Positions 60,568-63,346 of a stretch of 64,000 bases of DNA are shown piece by piece. Every line of letters begins with the position of its first letter. Within the stretch, counting starts at the first letter, position 1. A program made the translations under genes and the position numbers. The stretch lies in NCBI RefSeq assembly GCF_025972045.1, contig NZ_JAPDHX010000003.1, positions 496,001 through 560,000 of the forward strand, given 5' to 3'. The stretch is from Micropruina sonneratiae. GTDB lineage: Bacteria > Actinomycetota > Actinomycetes > Propionibacteriales > Propionibacteriaceae. The notes beneath the pieces were generated by a model that worked only from the letters and a program-made list of their open reading frames with translations, had not been told where the DNA came from and ran no database searches.

Positions 60568-61059
60568 TCAGCCCCGGTGGAACATGCTGCGCAGGCGTCC
60601 GAGCAGGGTCTGCTGCTCCATCGCCTCCTCGAACCCCTCGGCGACGGCGGCGAAGCTGCTCGCCAACTCTGCGTGGTGGTCGAGAAAGCGTCCGCCGGTG
60701 ATCTCGTCGAGCCCGACCAGCCCCGTGGTCTCCTCGATCGACAGGGTCACCCTCACCAGCGTGTCGAAGGCGCCCGAGTCGGCGTTGGTCGACCAGAACG
60801 GCAGGGACGCCTGGTAGTCGTCGTGCTGCCAGCTGACCAGCAGGCCGGAGGGCCGGTGCGCCACCTGTCGCGCGAACGGCGTCGCGTCGAGGACGTACTC
60901 GTCGGCCGGCAGCACCTCCAGCAGCGCCGGTTGGACCCGGTCCCACAGCCCCACCTCCTCGGCGGCCAGCTCGTCCGGGTCCTGGTCCTGGTCGCCCTGG
61001 CCGGGATCGTCGGGCAGCGTGCTCGTGCCGGCCGGTAGGAAGTGCACCGCGAAGCTCAT
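60568..61059 (-). CDS. Conserved-looking soluble protein of unknown function
   Basis: A 163-residue acidic protein with no membrane segment. A Gln/Asp-rich loop (residues 15-32) is followed by mixed alpha/beta sequence including WSTNADSGAFDTLVRVTLSI and a C-terminal helix ending LLGRLRSMFHRG. I recognise no family. TAGGCT 6 bases before the ATG supports the start (leaderless). It is divergent from the RHH gene and shares its operator region. Confidence 0.75.
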   Translation of the reverse strand: MSFAVHFLPAGTSTLPDDPGQGDQDQDPDELAAEEVGLWDRVQPALLEVLPADEYVLDATPFARQVAHRPSGLLVSWQHDDYQASLPFWSTNADSGAFDTLVRVTLSIEETTGLVGLDEITGGRFLDHHAELASSFAAVAEGFEEAMEQQTLLGRLRSMFHRG

Positions 61060-61090: not shown

Positions 61091-61163
61091 TGACGTCACT
61101 GCGGAGGCACTATGACGTCATTGTACTTGTGCATGACGTCATAGTGGTGCCATGATGGCGTCA
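61091..61163. promoter_or_regulatory. Array of four phased TGACGTCA operators
   Basis: TGACGTCA occurs at 61091-61098, 61113-61120 and 61134-61141, and TGGCGTCA at 61156-61163. Start-to-start distances are 22, 21 and 22 bp, two turns of B-DNA, so all sites face the same side. The two central sites extend to ATGACGTCAT. The last overlaps the start codon of the ribbon-helix-helix gene. This is the expected layout for cooperative, autoregulatory RHH binding and could also repress the divergent gene at 61059. Confidence 0.75.
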
Positions 61164-61633
61164 TGGACCTCAATCCGTATCTGGCGGCCGTAGCCGCCGA
61201 CCTCGACAAGGCGACGGCCCTTGCCGACGACGCCACCCGCTCCACCACGGCCCGGGTCGCAGTCGCCGTCGAGCCCGCCCTGCGACTGGCCATGACGCAG
61301 CTGTTGGCGGACGCCGCGGCGCAACTCACCAGCGACCTGTCCGGCGCGGTCGTGACCGTCCGGATGGACGGACGCGAGCCCGTCCTGCACGTGCAGGAGC
61401 AGCCCATCGCGGACCTGCCCCCGACACTGGTCGAGCCCGCGTCCGCCGACGACGACGGCACCGCCCGCGTCACCGTCCGGCTGCCCGAGCAGCTCAAGCG
61501 GCAGGCCGAGAATCTGGCCCAGCGGGCAGACCAGTCGCTCAACACCTGGATCGTGCAGGCCGTCCGCCGCGCCGTCCAGCCCACCCGTACCGACCATCAC
61601 GCGACCTCCCGCCGGATCACCGGCTGGGCCTGA
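61163..61633 (+). CDS. Ribbon-helix-helix regulator-like protein
   Basis: A 156-residue protein. The N-terminal two thirds form a helical domain of unknown type. The C-terminal part (about residues 98-142) has an Arc/CopG-type ribbon-helix-helix: ARVTVRLPEQLKRQAENLAQ, then SLNTWIVQAVRRAV. It likely binds the phased operators at its own promoter. CATGAT 6 bases before the ATG fits the leaderless pattern. It lies 9 bases before the DUF4097 gene and is co-transcribed; the pair could resemble an antitoxin-like regulator with a partner, but no toxin is recognisable. Confidence 0.8.
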   Translation: MDLNPYLAAVAADLDKATALADDATRSTTARVAVAVEPALRLAMTQLLADAAAQLTSDLSGAVVTVRMDGREPVLHVQEQPIADLPPTLVEPASADDDGTARVTVRLPEQLKRQAENLAQRADQSLNTWIVQAVRRAVQPTRTDHHATSRRITGWA

Positions 61634-61642
61634 GGAGAGACC

Positions 61643-62575
61643 ATGAACACCACCACCAGCACCAGCCAGACCTGGGAGTTCGCCGTCGACGAGCTGCCCA
61701 GGCTGTTCCTGCAGGCCCACCAGGGCGACATCCACCTCCGGCACTCCGGCGGACCCGGCCAGGTCGAGGTCACGGTGAGCACCGACGTGGCCGTGGACTT
61801 CCAGGGCGTCGAGACCCGCACCGACGGTCGCGACGTCCGCGTCGTGATCCCTGCGCTGCTCAATCCGGAGGGACGCGGCTTCGCGCTCCAGTTGGGCAGC
61901 CTCAGCATCGGGGCGGGCAACACCGTTCGCAGCCGGATCGACGTGCTGGTGCCCCCCGACGCCGACCTCGAACTGCAGGTGGGCGGCGGCAACGTCACCG
62001 TGGAGGGCCGCAGCGGAACGCTTCGCGTGCGCACCGGCGGCGGCGACGTCCGCTTCGACGAGGCCGGCACCGTGCAGGTTCGCACCGGGGGCGGCGACGT
62101 CAGCGCGGTCCGGGCTGTGGAGGGGCGTCTGGACACCGGCGGCGGCGACATCAGGCTCAAGTCACTGGGGGAGGGCAGCATCAGCACCGGAGGCGGCGAC
62201 GTATCGGTGCGGACCTTCGGTCCGGGCCGGATCAGTACCGGCGGCGGCGACATCAGGGTGCAGTCGACCGAGGGGGACGTGACGCTGCACACCGGCGGCG
62301 GCGACGTGAACCTGGACGGCTGCCGCGGGCGCTCGGAGGTCACGACCGGCGCCGGCGACGTCCGGATCGGGGTGTTGGCCGGCCAGCTCAACGTGCGTAC
62401 CGGAGCGGGCGACATCTCGATCACCGTTCCTCCCGAGGTGCCCGTGTGGCAGGACCTGAGCAGCCCGCTCGGCGAGGTCGTCAGCCGCATCGCCGGCCGG
62501 GGCGAACCGGTCGAGGGTCAGGAGCACGTCGAGGTGGTGGCCCGCACCGGGACCGGCGACATCACGCTCGCGTGA
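61643..62575 (+). CDS. DUF4097 family beta-strand-repeat protein
   Basis: A 310-residue protein. After an N-terminal beta domain, residues about 115-270 hold a run of short repeats of 15-21 residues built on TGGGDV/I (six copies, then TGAGD twice and TGTGD once near the end), probably one turn each of a beta-solenoid. There is no signal peptide or membrane helix, so it is probably cytosolic. AGGAGAG precedes the ATG. Actinobacterial members are often next to small regulators, as here. Function unknown. Confidence 0.88.
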   Translation: MNTTTSTSQTWEFAVDELPRLFLQAHQGDIHLRHSGGPGQVEVTVSTDVAVDFQGVETRTDGRDVRVVIPALLNPEGRGFALQLGSLSIGAGNTVRSRIDVLVPPDADLELQVGGGNVTVEGRSGTLRVRTGGGDVRFDEAGTVQVRTGGGDVSAVRAVEGRLDTGGGDIRLKSLGEGSISTGGGDVSVRTFGPGRISTGGGDIRVQSTEGDVTLHTGGGDVNLDGCRGRSEVTTGAGDVRIGVLAGQLNVRTGAGDISITVPPEVPVWQDLSSPLGEVVSRIAGRGEPVEGQEHVEVVARTGTGDITLA

Positions 62576-62591: not shown

Positions 62592-63167
62592 TCACGCCAG
62601 CGGCACGAACGCGAAGCGATGCTCGGCGTCGGGGGTGCGGTGCAGGCCGGCGGCGTCCCGCTCGACGGTCCACATCACCCCGGCGGCCGGCAGCACCATC
62701 CGGCCGCCGACGGCCAGCTGAGCCTCCAGTTCGGCGGGGATCGCGCCGGCGTCCGCTGAGACCAGAATGCGGTCGAAGGGGGCACGCTCGGGCAGGCCTA
62801 GCGTGCCGGGGGCGGCCGGCACGATTTCGGCCCAGGGCAGGGCGAAGGCGTCGAGGTTGCGGGTGCCCAGGTCGACGAGTTGGCGCACCACCTCGACGCC
62901 GGCGACCGATCCGGACGGACCGGTCAGCTCGGCCAGCAGCGCCGTCGTCCAGCCCGAGCCGCTGCCGACGTCGAGCACGCGGGCGCCGGGCGGCACGGCC
63001 AGTAGTTCGAGCATGAACCGGACCGTCCAGGGTTGCGAGTTGGTGGCGCCGTGGCCGATCGGCAGCGGCGCGTCCACGTCGGCCCGGGAACGCACCGACG
63101 GCGGCAGGAAGGCGGCCCGGCCGATGCTGCGCATCGCCCGAGCGACCCGTCGATCCCGCCCGTTCAT
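62592..63167 (-). CDS. Protein-L-isoaspartate O-methyltransferase-like protein
   Basis: A 191-residue SAM-dependent methyltransferase. The PCMT signatures are visible: LPIGHGATNSQPWTVRFMLELL, the SAM loop VLDVGSGSGWTTALLAEL, and FDRILVSADAGAIPAELEAQL. PCMT repairs isoaspartyl residues; this protein is somewhat short, so a variant role is possible. The ATG at 63167 has GGTGAGG upstream; a longer frame reaches into the REP repeat and is not preferred. Confidence 0.85.
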   Translation of the reverse strand: MNGRDRRVARAMRSIGRAAFLPPSVRSRADVDAPLPIGHGATNSQPWTVRFMLELLAVPPGARVLDVGSGSGWTTALLAELTGPSGSVAGVEVVRQLVDLGTRNLDAFALPWAEIVPAAPGTLGLPERAPFDRILVSADAGAIPAELEAQLAVGGRMVLPAAGVMWTVERDAAGLHRTPDAEHRFAFVPLA

Positions 63168-63223
63168 CGCCTCACCATCACCCCGACCCCCGCCCCGGCG
63201 CAAGACCACGACACCCGCCTCCC

Positions 63224-63346
63224 GTAATCCCGGCTCGTCCTTCGTCATCCCGGCTCGTCCTTCGTCATCCCGGCTCGTCCTTCGTCATCCCGGCGAACGC
63301 CGGGATCTCACACCGGCACCGGAGATCCCCGGGCAAGCCCGGGATG
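63224..63346. repeat. REP-like element with 20-bp tandem expansion
   Basis: The unit TTCGTCATCCCGGCTCGTCC is repeated with a 20-bp period about three times (the first copy partial), then runs into a complete head palindrome CGTCATCCCGGCGAACGCCGGG and, after about 25 bases, the tail CCCCGGGCAAGCCCGGGATGACG. Same family as 32085 and 54196. The expansion looks like recent slippage and may vary between strains. Confidence 0.75.

Follow-up and report, generated by a model that had tools for sequence, protein, structure and literature searches.

The closest described relatives of the locus considered here are the ribbon-helix-helix (RHH; MetJ/Arc) autorepressors such as MetJ and AmrZ, with which it shares an RHH domain and short near-palindromes present in multiple copies. 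The metbox of MetJ, AGACGTCT, has a GACGTC core in common with the boxes of the window (by which is meant the whole 64,000-nucleotide stretch of Micropruina sonneratiae DNA that was analysed), and the tandem MetJ boxes lie 8 bp apart. Unlike MetJ and AmrZ, the RHH protein of the window carries its RHH domain at the C-terminus, after an N-terminal region of about 90 residues, the boxes follow an 11-bp period, the predicted operator is fused with a presumed -10 element and the start codon, and the operon partner is a Toastrack (DUF4097) protein. A further likeness is to the HicB antitoxins (PF05534), as the RHH segment matches their profile; however, that profile matches the RHH part only, the partner is a Toastrack protein, and no HicA toxin gene is adjacent, the neighbours being the DUF4097 gene, a divergent protein without a Pfam match and a frame on the other strand at 62592-63248. 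The extended PSP/Lia operons provide the likeness on the partner's side, since they too contain a Toastrack protein and an ABC ATPase match lies just downstream of the present gene pair, on the same strand, in 28/141 loci, a lower bound in that most flanking sequences extend no further than about 2 kb. An actinobacterial Toastrack operon with an ABC ATPase and a permease has been reported to carry an RHH factor in place of a GntR factor (PMC11237479, 2024), so that the association of RHH and Toastrack genes is already in print, and RHH autorepressors are a known kind of regulator. That operon includes ABC genes, whereas the operon of the window consists of the RHH and DUF4097 genes only, and the available text of that source describes neither an operator nor a promoter architecture and states no rule of specificity; likewise, no operator for this RHH gene family was found in the open-licence literature searched. 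In keeping with the RHH class, the protein of the window has an RHH domain with a predicted base-reading strand, and repeated short palindromes occur at its own inferred promoter. The RHH gene is widespread, and from the alignment of its loci an operator can be defined, a promoter modelled and a one-residue rule of specificity stated that is open to falsification.

The operon and its box array in the window

The RHH regulator P0001 (156 aa; 61163-61633, plus strand) consists of a C-terminal RHH domain, approximately residues 100-139, and an N-terminal region without an assigned function. It matches PF05534 (HicB) above the cut-off (2.2e-5) over residues 104-134 only, PF01402 below the cut-off, and NF041551 above the cut-off of that family. 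Sequence searches against solved structures returned only weak RHH matches for P0001, the best being VapB26 (0.0078), mixed with designed or unrelated proteins. In the structure model (mean pLDDT 57) helices are formed by residues 109-121 and 126-138, the beta-strand is not modelled, and the N-terminal region appears with low confidence as two helices and a hairpin. The predicted DNA-reading strand, R102-V-T104-V-R106, is encoded at 61466-61480 (plus strand), and its assignment draws on the invariance of R102 and R106 and on the covariation of residue 104 with the boxes. Nine bp after the end of the RHH gene starts the second gene of the operon, which encodes the DUF4097 (Toastrack) protein P0002 (310 aa; 61643-62575, plus strand; PF13349, 5.1e-13). 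The RHH gene is present in a single copy in this genome, and the frames flanking the pair (60568-61059 and 62592-63248) both lie on the other strand; the former, P0003 (163 aa, minus strand), is divergent from the pair and has no Pfam match up to E 1. Neither the RHH nor the DUF4097 protein had a PADLOC match up to E 0.01. A profile scan of three proteins detected no PspA, PspC, LiaF or two-component genes in the two-gene operon; given this coverage, PSP genes may lie elsewhere in the genome.

Upstream of the RHH gene, exact copies of TGACGTCA lie at 61091-61098, 61113-61120 and 61134-61141, and a copy with one mismatch, TGGCGTCA, at 61156-61163, so that the boxes follow one another at 22, 21 and 22 bp and the final base of the last box doubles as the A of the RHH start codon at 61163. 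The initial annotation, which had described four near-identical palindromes with this phasing, the last overlapping the start codon of the RHH gene, was thus accurate in its positions, yet incomplete: by the family consensus a fifth box, TGGTGCCA, at 61145-61152, had been overlooked between the boxes at 61134 and 61156, and with it these three form an 11-bp ladder. They are referred to below as core box 1 (TGACGTCA, 61134-61141, at -29 from the ATG), core box 2 (TGGTGCCA, 61145-61152, at -18), which fits TGRYGYCA at an occupancy peak of the relatives (-18/-19) and has its form repeated in many of them, and core box 3 (TGGCGTCA, 61156-61163, at -7); none has an assigned strand, and core boxes 1 and 3 are identified by their match together with conservation. 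Two distal boxes, likewise unstranded and exact copies of TGACGTCA, are those at -50 (61113-61120), where relatives have an occupancy peak at -50 to -52, and at -72 (61091-61098), for which a box matching all eight letters of TGRYRYCA is found somewhere between -78 and -45 in 92/143 loci. Read against the family consensus, the 22/21/22 spacing is an 11-bp ladder minus some rungs, the match having been lost at 61102-61109 and in the slot near 61123.

The word itself is not what sets the locus apart. Matches to TGACGTCA with one mismatch are not enriched across the window (23, against a shuffle mean of 30.7), and the signal is therefore one of clustering. Genome-wide (3.516 Mb) there are 34 exact TGACGTCA sites, compared with 15 for a reversed-pattern control, and three of the 34 fall inside 51 bp here, where approximately 6e-6 such triples would be expected on a uniform-scatter estimate, in agreement with the earlier judgement that so regular an arrangement would hardly arise by chance. 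The composite pattern TGACGTCAT-N12-14-TGACGTCA matches the genome at this locus only (three overlapping matches), and TGRYGYCA-N3-TGRYGYCA gives two overlapping matches, both at this locus, with none for the control.

Conservation of the array among relatives

Homologues of the RHH gene were found in 105/196 genomes of an order-level sample and in 102/296 of a class-level sample, together 195 different gene-bearing genomes, with 12 shared between the samples. From these, 144 loci were collected and the gene start was located in 143, the window included: 134 come from 132 of the 195 genomes and comprise automatic best-match loci together with 80 regions picked by score and family before their upstream sequence was seen, and nine are further loci. 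Dropped before counting were L001 and L002, duplicates of the window's locus, and L012, a partial match in which no gene start was found. The loci are related, and the counts below are thus not counts of independent events. In 131/143 loci the RHH gene is followed by a homologous DUF4097 match, which begins 462-1183 bp from the RHH start; the 12 loci without such a match, in which a divergent DUF4097 copy may have been missed, all have at least two core boxes.

At least two of the three core boxes, near -29, -18 and -7 from the ATG, are present in 143/143 RHH loci and all three in 108/143, a box being scored where seven of the eight letters of TGRYRYCA agree at the best of two or three neighbouring offsets per place; the same test at random positions in the same loci found two or more boxes in 8/6551. 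With the stricter TGRYGYCA and a spacing of 10-12 bp, at least two boxes occur in 112/142 upstream regions versus 20/3828 control windows, and at least three in phase in 37/142 versus 5/3828 control windows of the same loci (L056, with less than 110 bp upstream, was left out of this spacing test only). Many of the control hits in this test are supplied by a conserved stretch some 680-820 bp upstream in the f2 group, which was attributed, on a translation made by eye, to coding constraint. Among 14200 Markov-resampled upstream regions, the fraction with at least two phased boxes was 0.00014 and with at least three, 0. Distances between boxes peak at 11 (141 pairs), 22 (50), 32-33 (40) and 43 bp (22), and box positions in relatives at about -51, -29, -18 and -7.

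The conserved unit in the aligned upstream regions is 11 bp, not 22. The 11-bp distance peak and the spacing in relatives rule out 22 bp, the unit proposed in the initial annotation, and the closest relatives, L003 and L004, lack the 22/21/22 arrangement. The comparison of relatives for conserved spacing that it had called for accordingly gave a divided answer, in that the boxes are kept at 11 bp and 22/21/22 is the form that this takes in the window's genome. Relatives that keep the gene pair without the boxes, which it had named as the observation that would speak against its reading, did not occur among the 143 loci examined. Cooperative binding along one DNA face, which it had predicted from the regular phasing, is compatible with the spacing, as an 11-bp period would set neighbouring dimers on nearly one face.

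An order-wide scan with a degenerate three-box pattern matched 51/196 genomes, namely 50 of the 105 gene-bearing genomes and 1 of the 91 others (Fisher p 7e-16, uncorrected for kinship); the one match in a genome without the RHH gene, G086, was set aside as probably due to chance. Coordinates compared by eye place the match at the gene start in 48 of the 50 matching gene-bearing genomes, the two exceptions being G038, where it lies just upstream of the gene start, and G053, where it lies elsewhere. The remaining 55/105 gene-bearing genomes gave no three-box match, which indicates that single bases and spacings drift. A second phased box pair occurs between -300 and -105 in 9/142 loci. In L119, L129, L130, L137, L143 and others a second cluster of TGGTGCCA, TGGCGCCA and TGGCATCA, partly with 10-bp phase, lies approximately 150 to 230 bp upstream of the ATG.

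Residue 104 and the bases of the boxes

The outer residues of the R-x-T-x-R strand, R102 and R106, are invariant in 143/143 loci, and the residue between them varies with the boxes. Among the 156 residues of the window's protein, the best predictor of the base at box position 3/6 is residue 104 (eta2 0.646; next column 0.487): boxes are mostly A:T at this position with T104 (n=82 loci, mean G fraction 0.18, range 0-0.50), mixed with S104 (n=38, mean 0.33, range 0-0.67, which touches the N range) and mostly G:C with N104 (n=23, mean 0.825, range 0.67-1.0). The window itself, with T104, has three A and three G at positions 3/6 of its core boxes, a fraction of 0.50 at the top of the T range, and is thus not a clean example of the rule. 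In two genomes that carry both a T and an N paralog (L016/L089 and L087/L088), the T copy has mostly A:T boxes and the N copy mostly G:C. GC bias as the cause of the difference between T and N was ruled out, the correlation with locus GC being negligible (Spearman 0.06). On a tree built without column 104, N needs five changes, two of them forced by supported branches. These branches provide two independent pairs, both of which agreed with the rule in nearly all of 200 pairings; two such pairs are too few for a sign test, so that the tree-corrected test is underpowered, and in it the difference between T and S was not significant. AmrZ gives a weak sequence match to P0001 (E 0.72) in which residue 102 aligns with position 21 of the AmrZ chain; on the assumption of a three-residue N-terminal tag, residues 102, 104 and 106 might fall on Lys18, Val20 and Arg22, which are described as the sequence-reading residues of AmrZ (PMC3325190).

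Overlap with a probable promoter, a proposed model of autorepression and possible wider targets

The core boxes coincide with what appears to be a promoter. In the window the promoter-like elements are TTGTGC, a spacer of 18 bp, CATGAT, six bases and the ATG. The probable -35, TTGTGC (61127-61132, plus strand), is suggested by the presence of TTG within -40 to -30 in 140/143 loci (TTGAC is found within -40 to -28 in 83/143). The probable -10, CATGAT (61151-61156, plus strand), is put together from the last bases of core box 2, the intervening linker and the initial T of core box 3, and is suggested by conserved letters: 103/103 loci of the commoner register have A at -11 and T at -7, so that their core boxes read CAnnnT where a -10 would be expected, 17-18 bp downstream of the TTG, and in the other 40 loci the pattern is shifted upstream by one base. 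As these letters are also box letters, their conservation is not independent proof of a -10 element, and a consensus scan for a sigma-70 promoter or terminator at the locus found none. A Shine-Dalgarno pentamer (AGGAG, GGAGG, GAGGA or AAGGA) occurs between -20 and -4 in 0/143 loci, which suggests that the operon mRNA is probably leaderless, with transcription starting at about the ATG.

Taken together, these data allow the construction of a model in which the RHH protein very probably represses its own two-gene operon, the probably leaderless promoter being itself the operator. According to this model, an RHH dimer would read an 8-bp near-palindrome of the TGRYGYCA family by placing the strand R102-V-T104-V-R106 in its major groove and, with neighbouring boxes 11 bp apart, the dimers would be aligned on nearly one face of the DNA. 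A -35-like TTG stands immediately upstream of core box 1, the 17-18 bp spacer would be occupied by core boxes 1 and 2, the presumed -10 CATGAT would be the junction of core boxes 2 and 3, and core box 3 runs into the ATG that is probably also the transcription start, such that bound repressor would cover the spacer, the -10 and the start simultaneously. The distal boxes at -50 and -72 may extend the filament or raise the local concentration of repressor. Once repression is lifted, the RHH and Toastrack proteins would be made together. That the boxes are the predicted operators of the RHH-DUF4097 operon, as the initial annotation had proposed, is supported by the retention of core boxes at every locus and by the covariation of the box sequence with the RHH beta-strand.

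Several other explanations may be weighed against autorepression. It is very unlikely that the boxes serve another regulator encoded elsewhere, with the RHH gene merely its target: such a regulator could explain why two genomes that have the RHH gene also contain arrays elsewhere, but it would not account for the finding that residue 104 of this very protein predicts the box base best, also between paralogs of the same genome, nor for the presence of the gene in 50 of the 51 genomes with an array and the restriction of the array in the window's genome to the gene's own start. An activating or DNA-organising role of the array in place of repression is highly improbable, as the boxes with the strongest conservation lie over the spacer, the presumed -10 and the start codon, where bound protein would block polymerase, although distal boxes do lie upstream of the -35 and some RHH proteins activate, AmrZ and Helicobacter pylori NikR among those described (PMC3325190). 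Chance or sequence bias as the source of the regular palindromes, to which the missing enrichment of one-mismatch matches in the window might be thought to point, can practically be discounted in view of the clustering, the controls and the conservation in all 143 loci.

Autoregulation of the antitoxin type is also unlikely. Here a HicB-like RHH antitoxin would act with DUF4097 as toxin or co-repressor and show conditional cooperativity over a multi-box operator, an arrangement suggested by the PF05534 match of the RHH part and by the position of the regulator as the first of two genes; operators with several boxes are frequent at toxin-antitoxin loci. HicB proteins are defined by a partial RNase H-like N-terminal domain; the N-terminal region of P0001 is modelled, with low confidence, as two helices and a hairpin. 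However, the searches for PADLOC matches were negative up to E 0.01, and the partner, with no HicA-like gene in its place, is the DUF4097/Toastrack protein found in 131/143 loci. In addition, the 12 loci without a detected DUF4097 match have all kept two or more core boxes, albeit with a divergent copy possibly missed.

Beyond autorepression of the two-gene operon, a broader reading is offered tentatively, as possible rather than probable. It proposes a class-wide actinobacterial module in which an 11-bp operator ladder would be the promoter, with boxes spelling the -10 and a leaderless start, in which a code at position 104 (T for A:T, S for both, N for G:C) would let paralogs coexist without cross-talk, and which would act as a membrane-stress switch over Toastrack proteins and, in some genomes, over ABC exporters as well. 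The Toastrack partner may have such a membrane-stress role by analogy with the LiaG/PSP systems. A search with the array pattern can list further targets and may thereby provide an opening on the function of this partner.

The divergent gene at 61059 was ruled out as a conserved target. A P0003 homologue was found upstream in 2/143 loci, one being the window and the other L004. It is the RHH gene that the array accompanies across loci rather than the divergent one, and the possible control of the latter raised in the initial annotation does not stand as a conserved feature. An effect on it may exist in this genome alone, where the first box of the array (61091) is 31 bases from its start codon.

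Arrays of the RHH type were also observed next to other genes. In the relative G160 (L149:1537-1565, minus strand), a second array with TTGACA abuts, in the same register, the ATG of an ABC transporter gene, P0004 (PF00005, 8.2e-17, in a 479-residue part of the frame). In the relative G053 (L150:1557-1586, minus strand), an array with TTGACT begins 83 bp before a 79-aa frame that has a Shine-Dalgarno-like AAGGAG. Further downstream in the window, a tandem repeat at 63223-63294 (3.6 copies of a 20-bp unit, 98% matches) sits between frames that resemble, by eye, a methyltransferase and a transporter.
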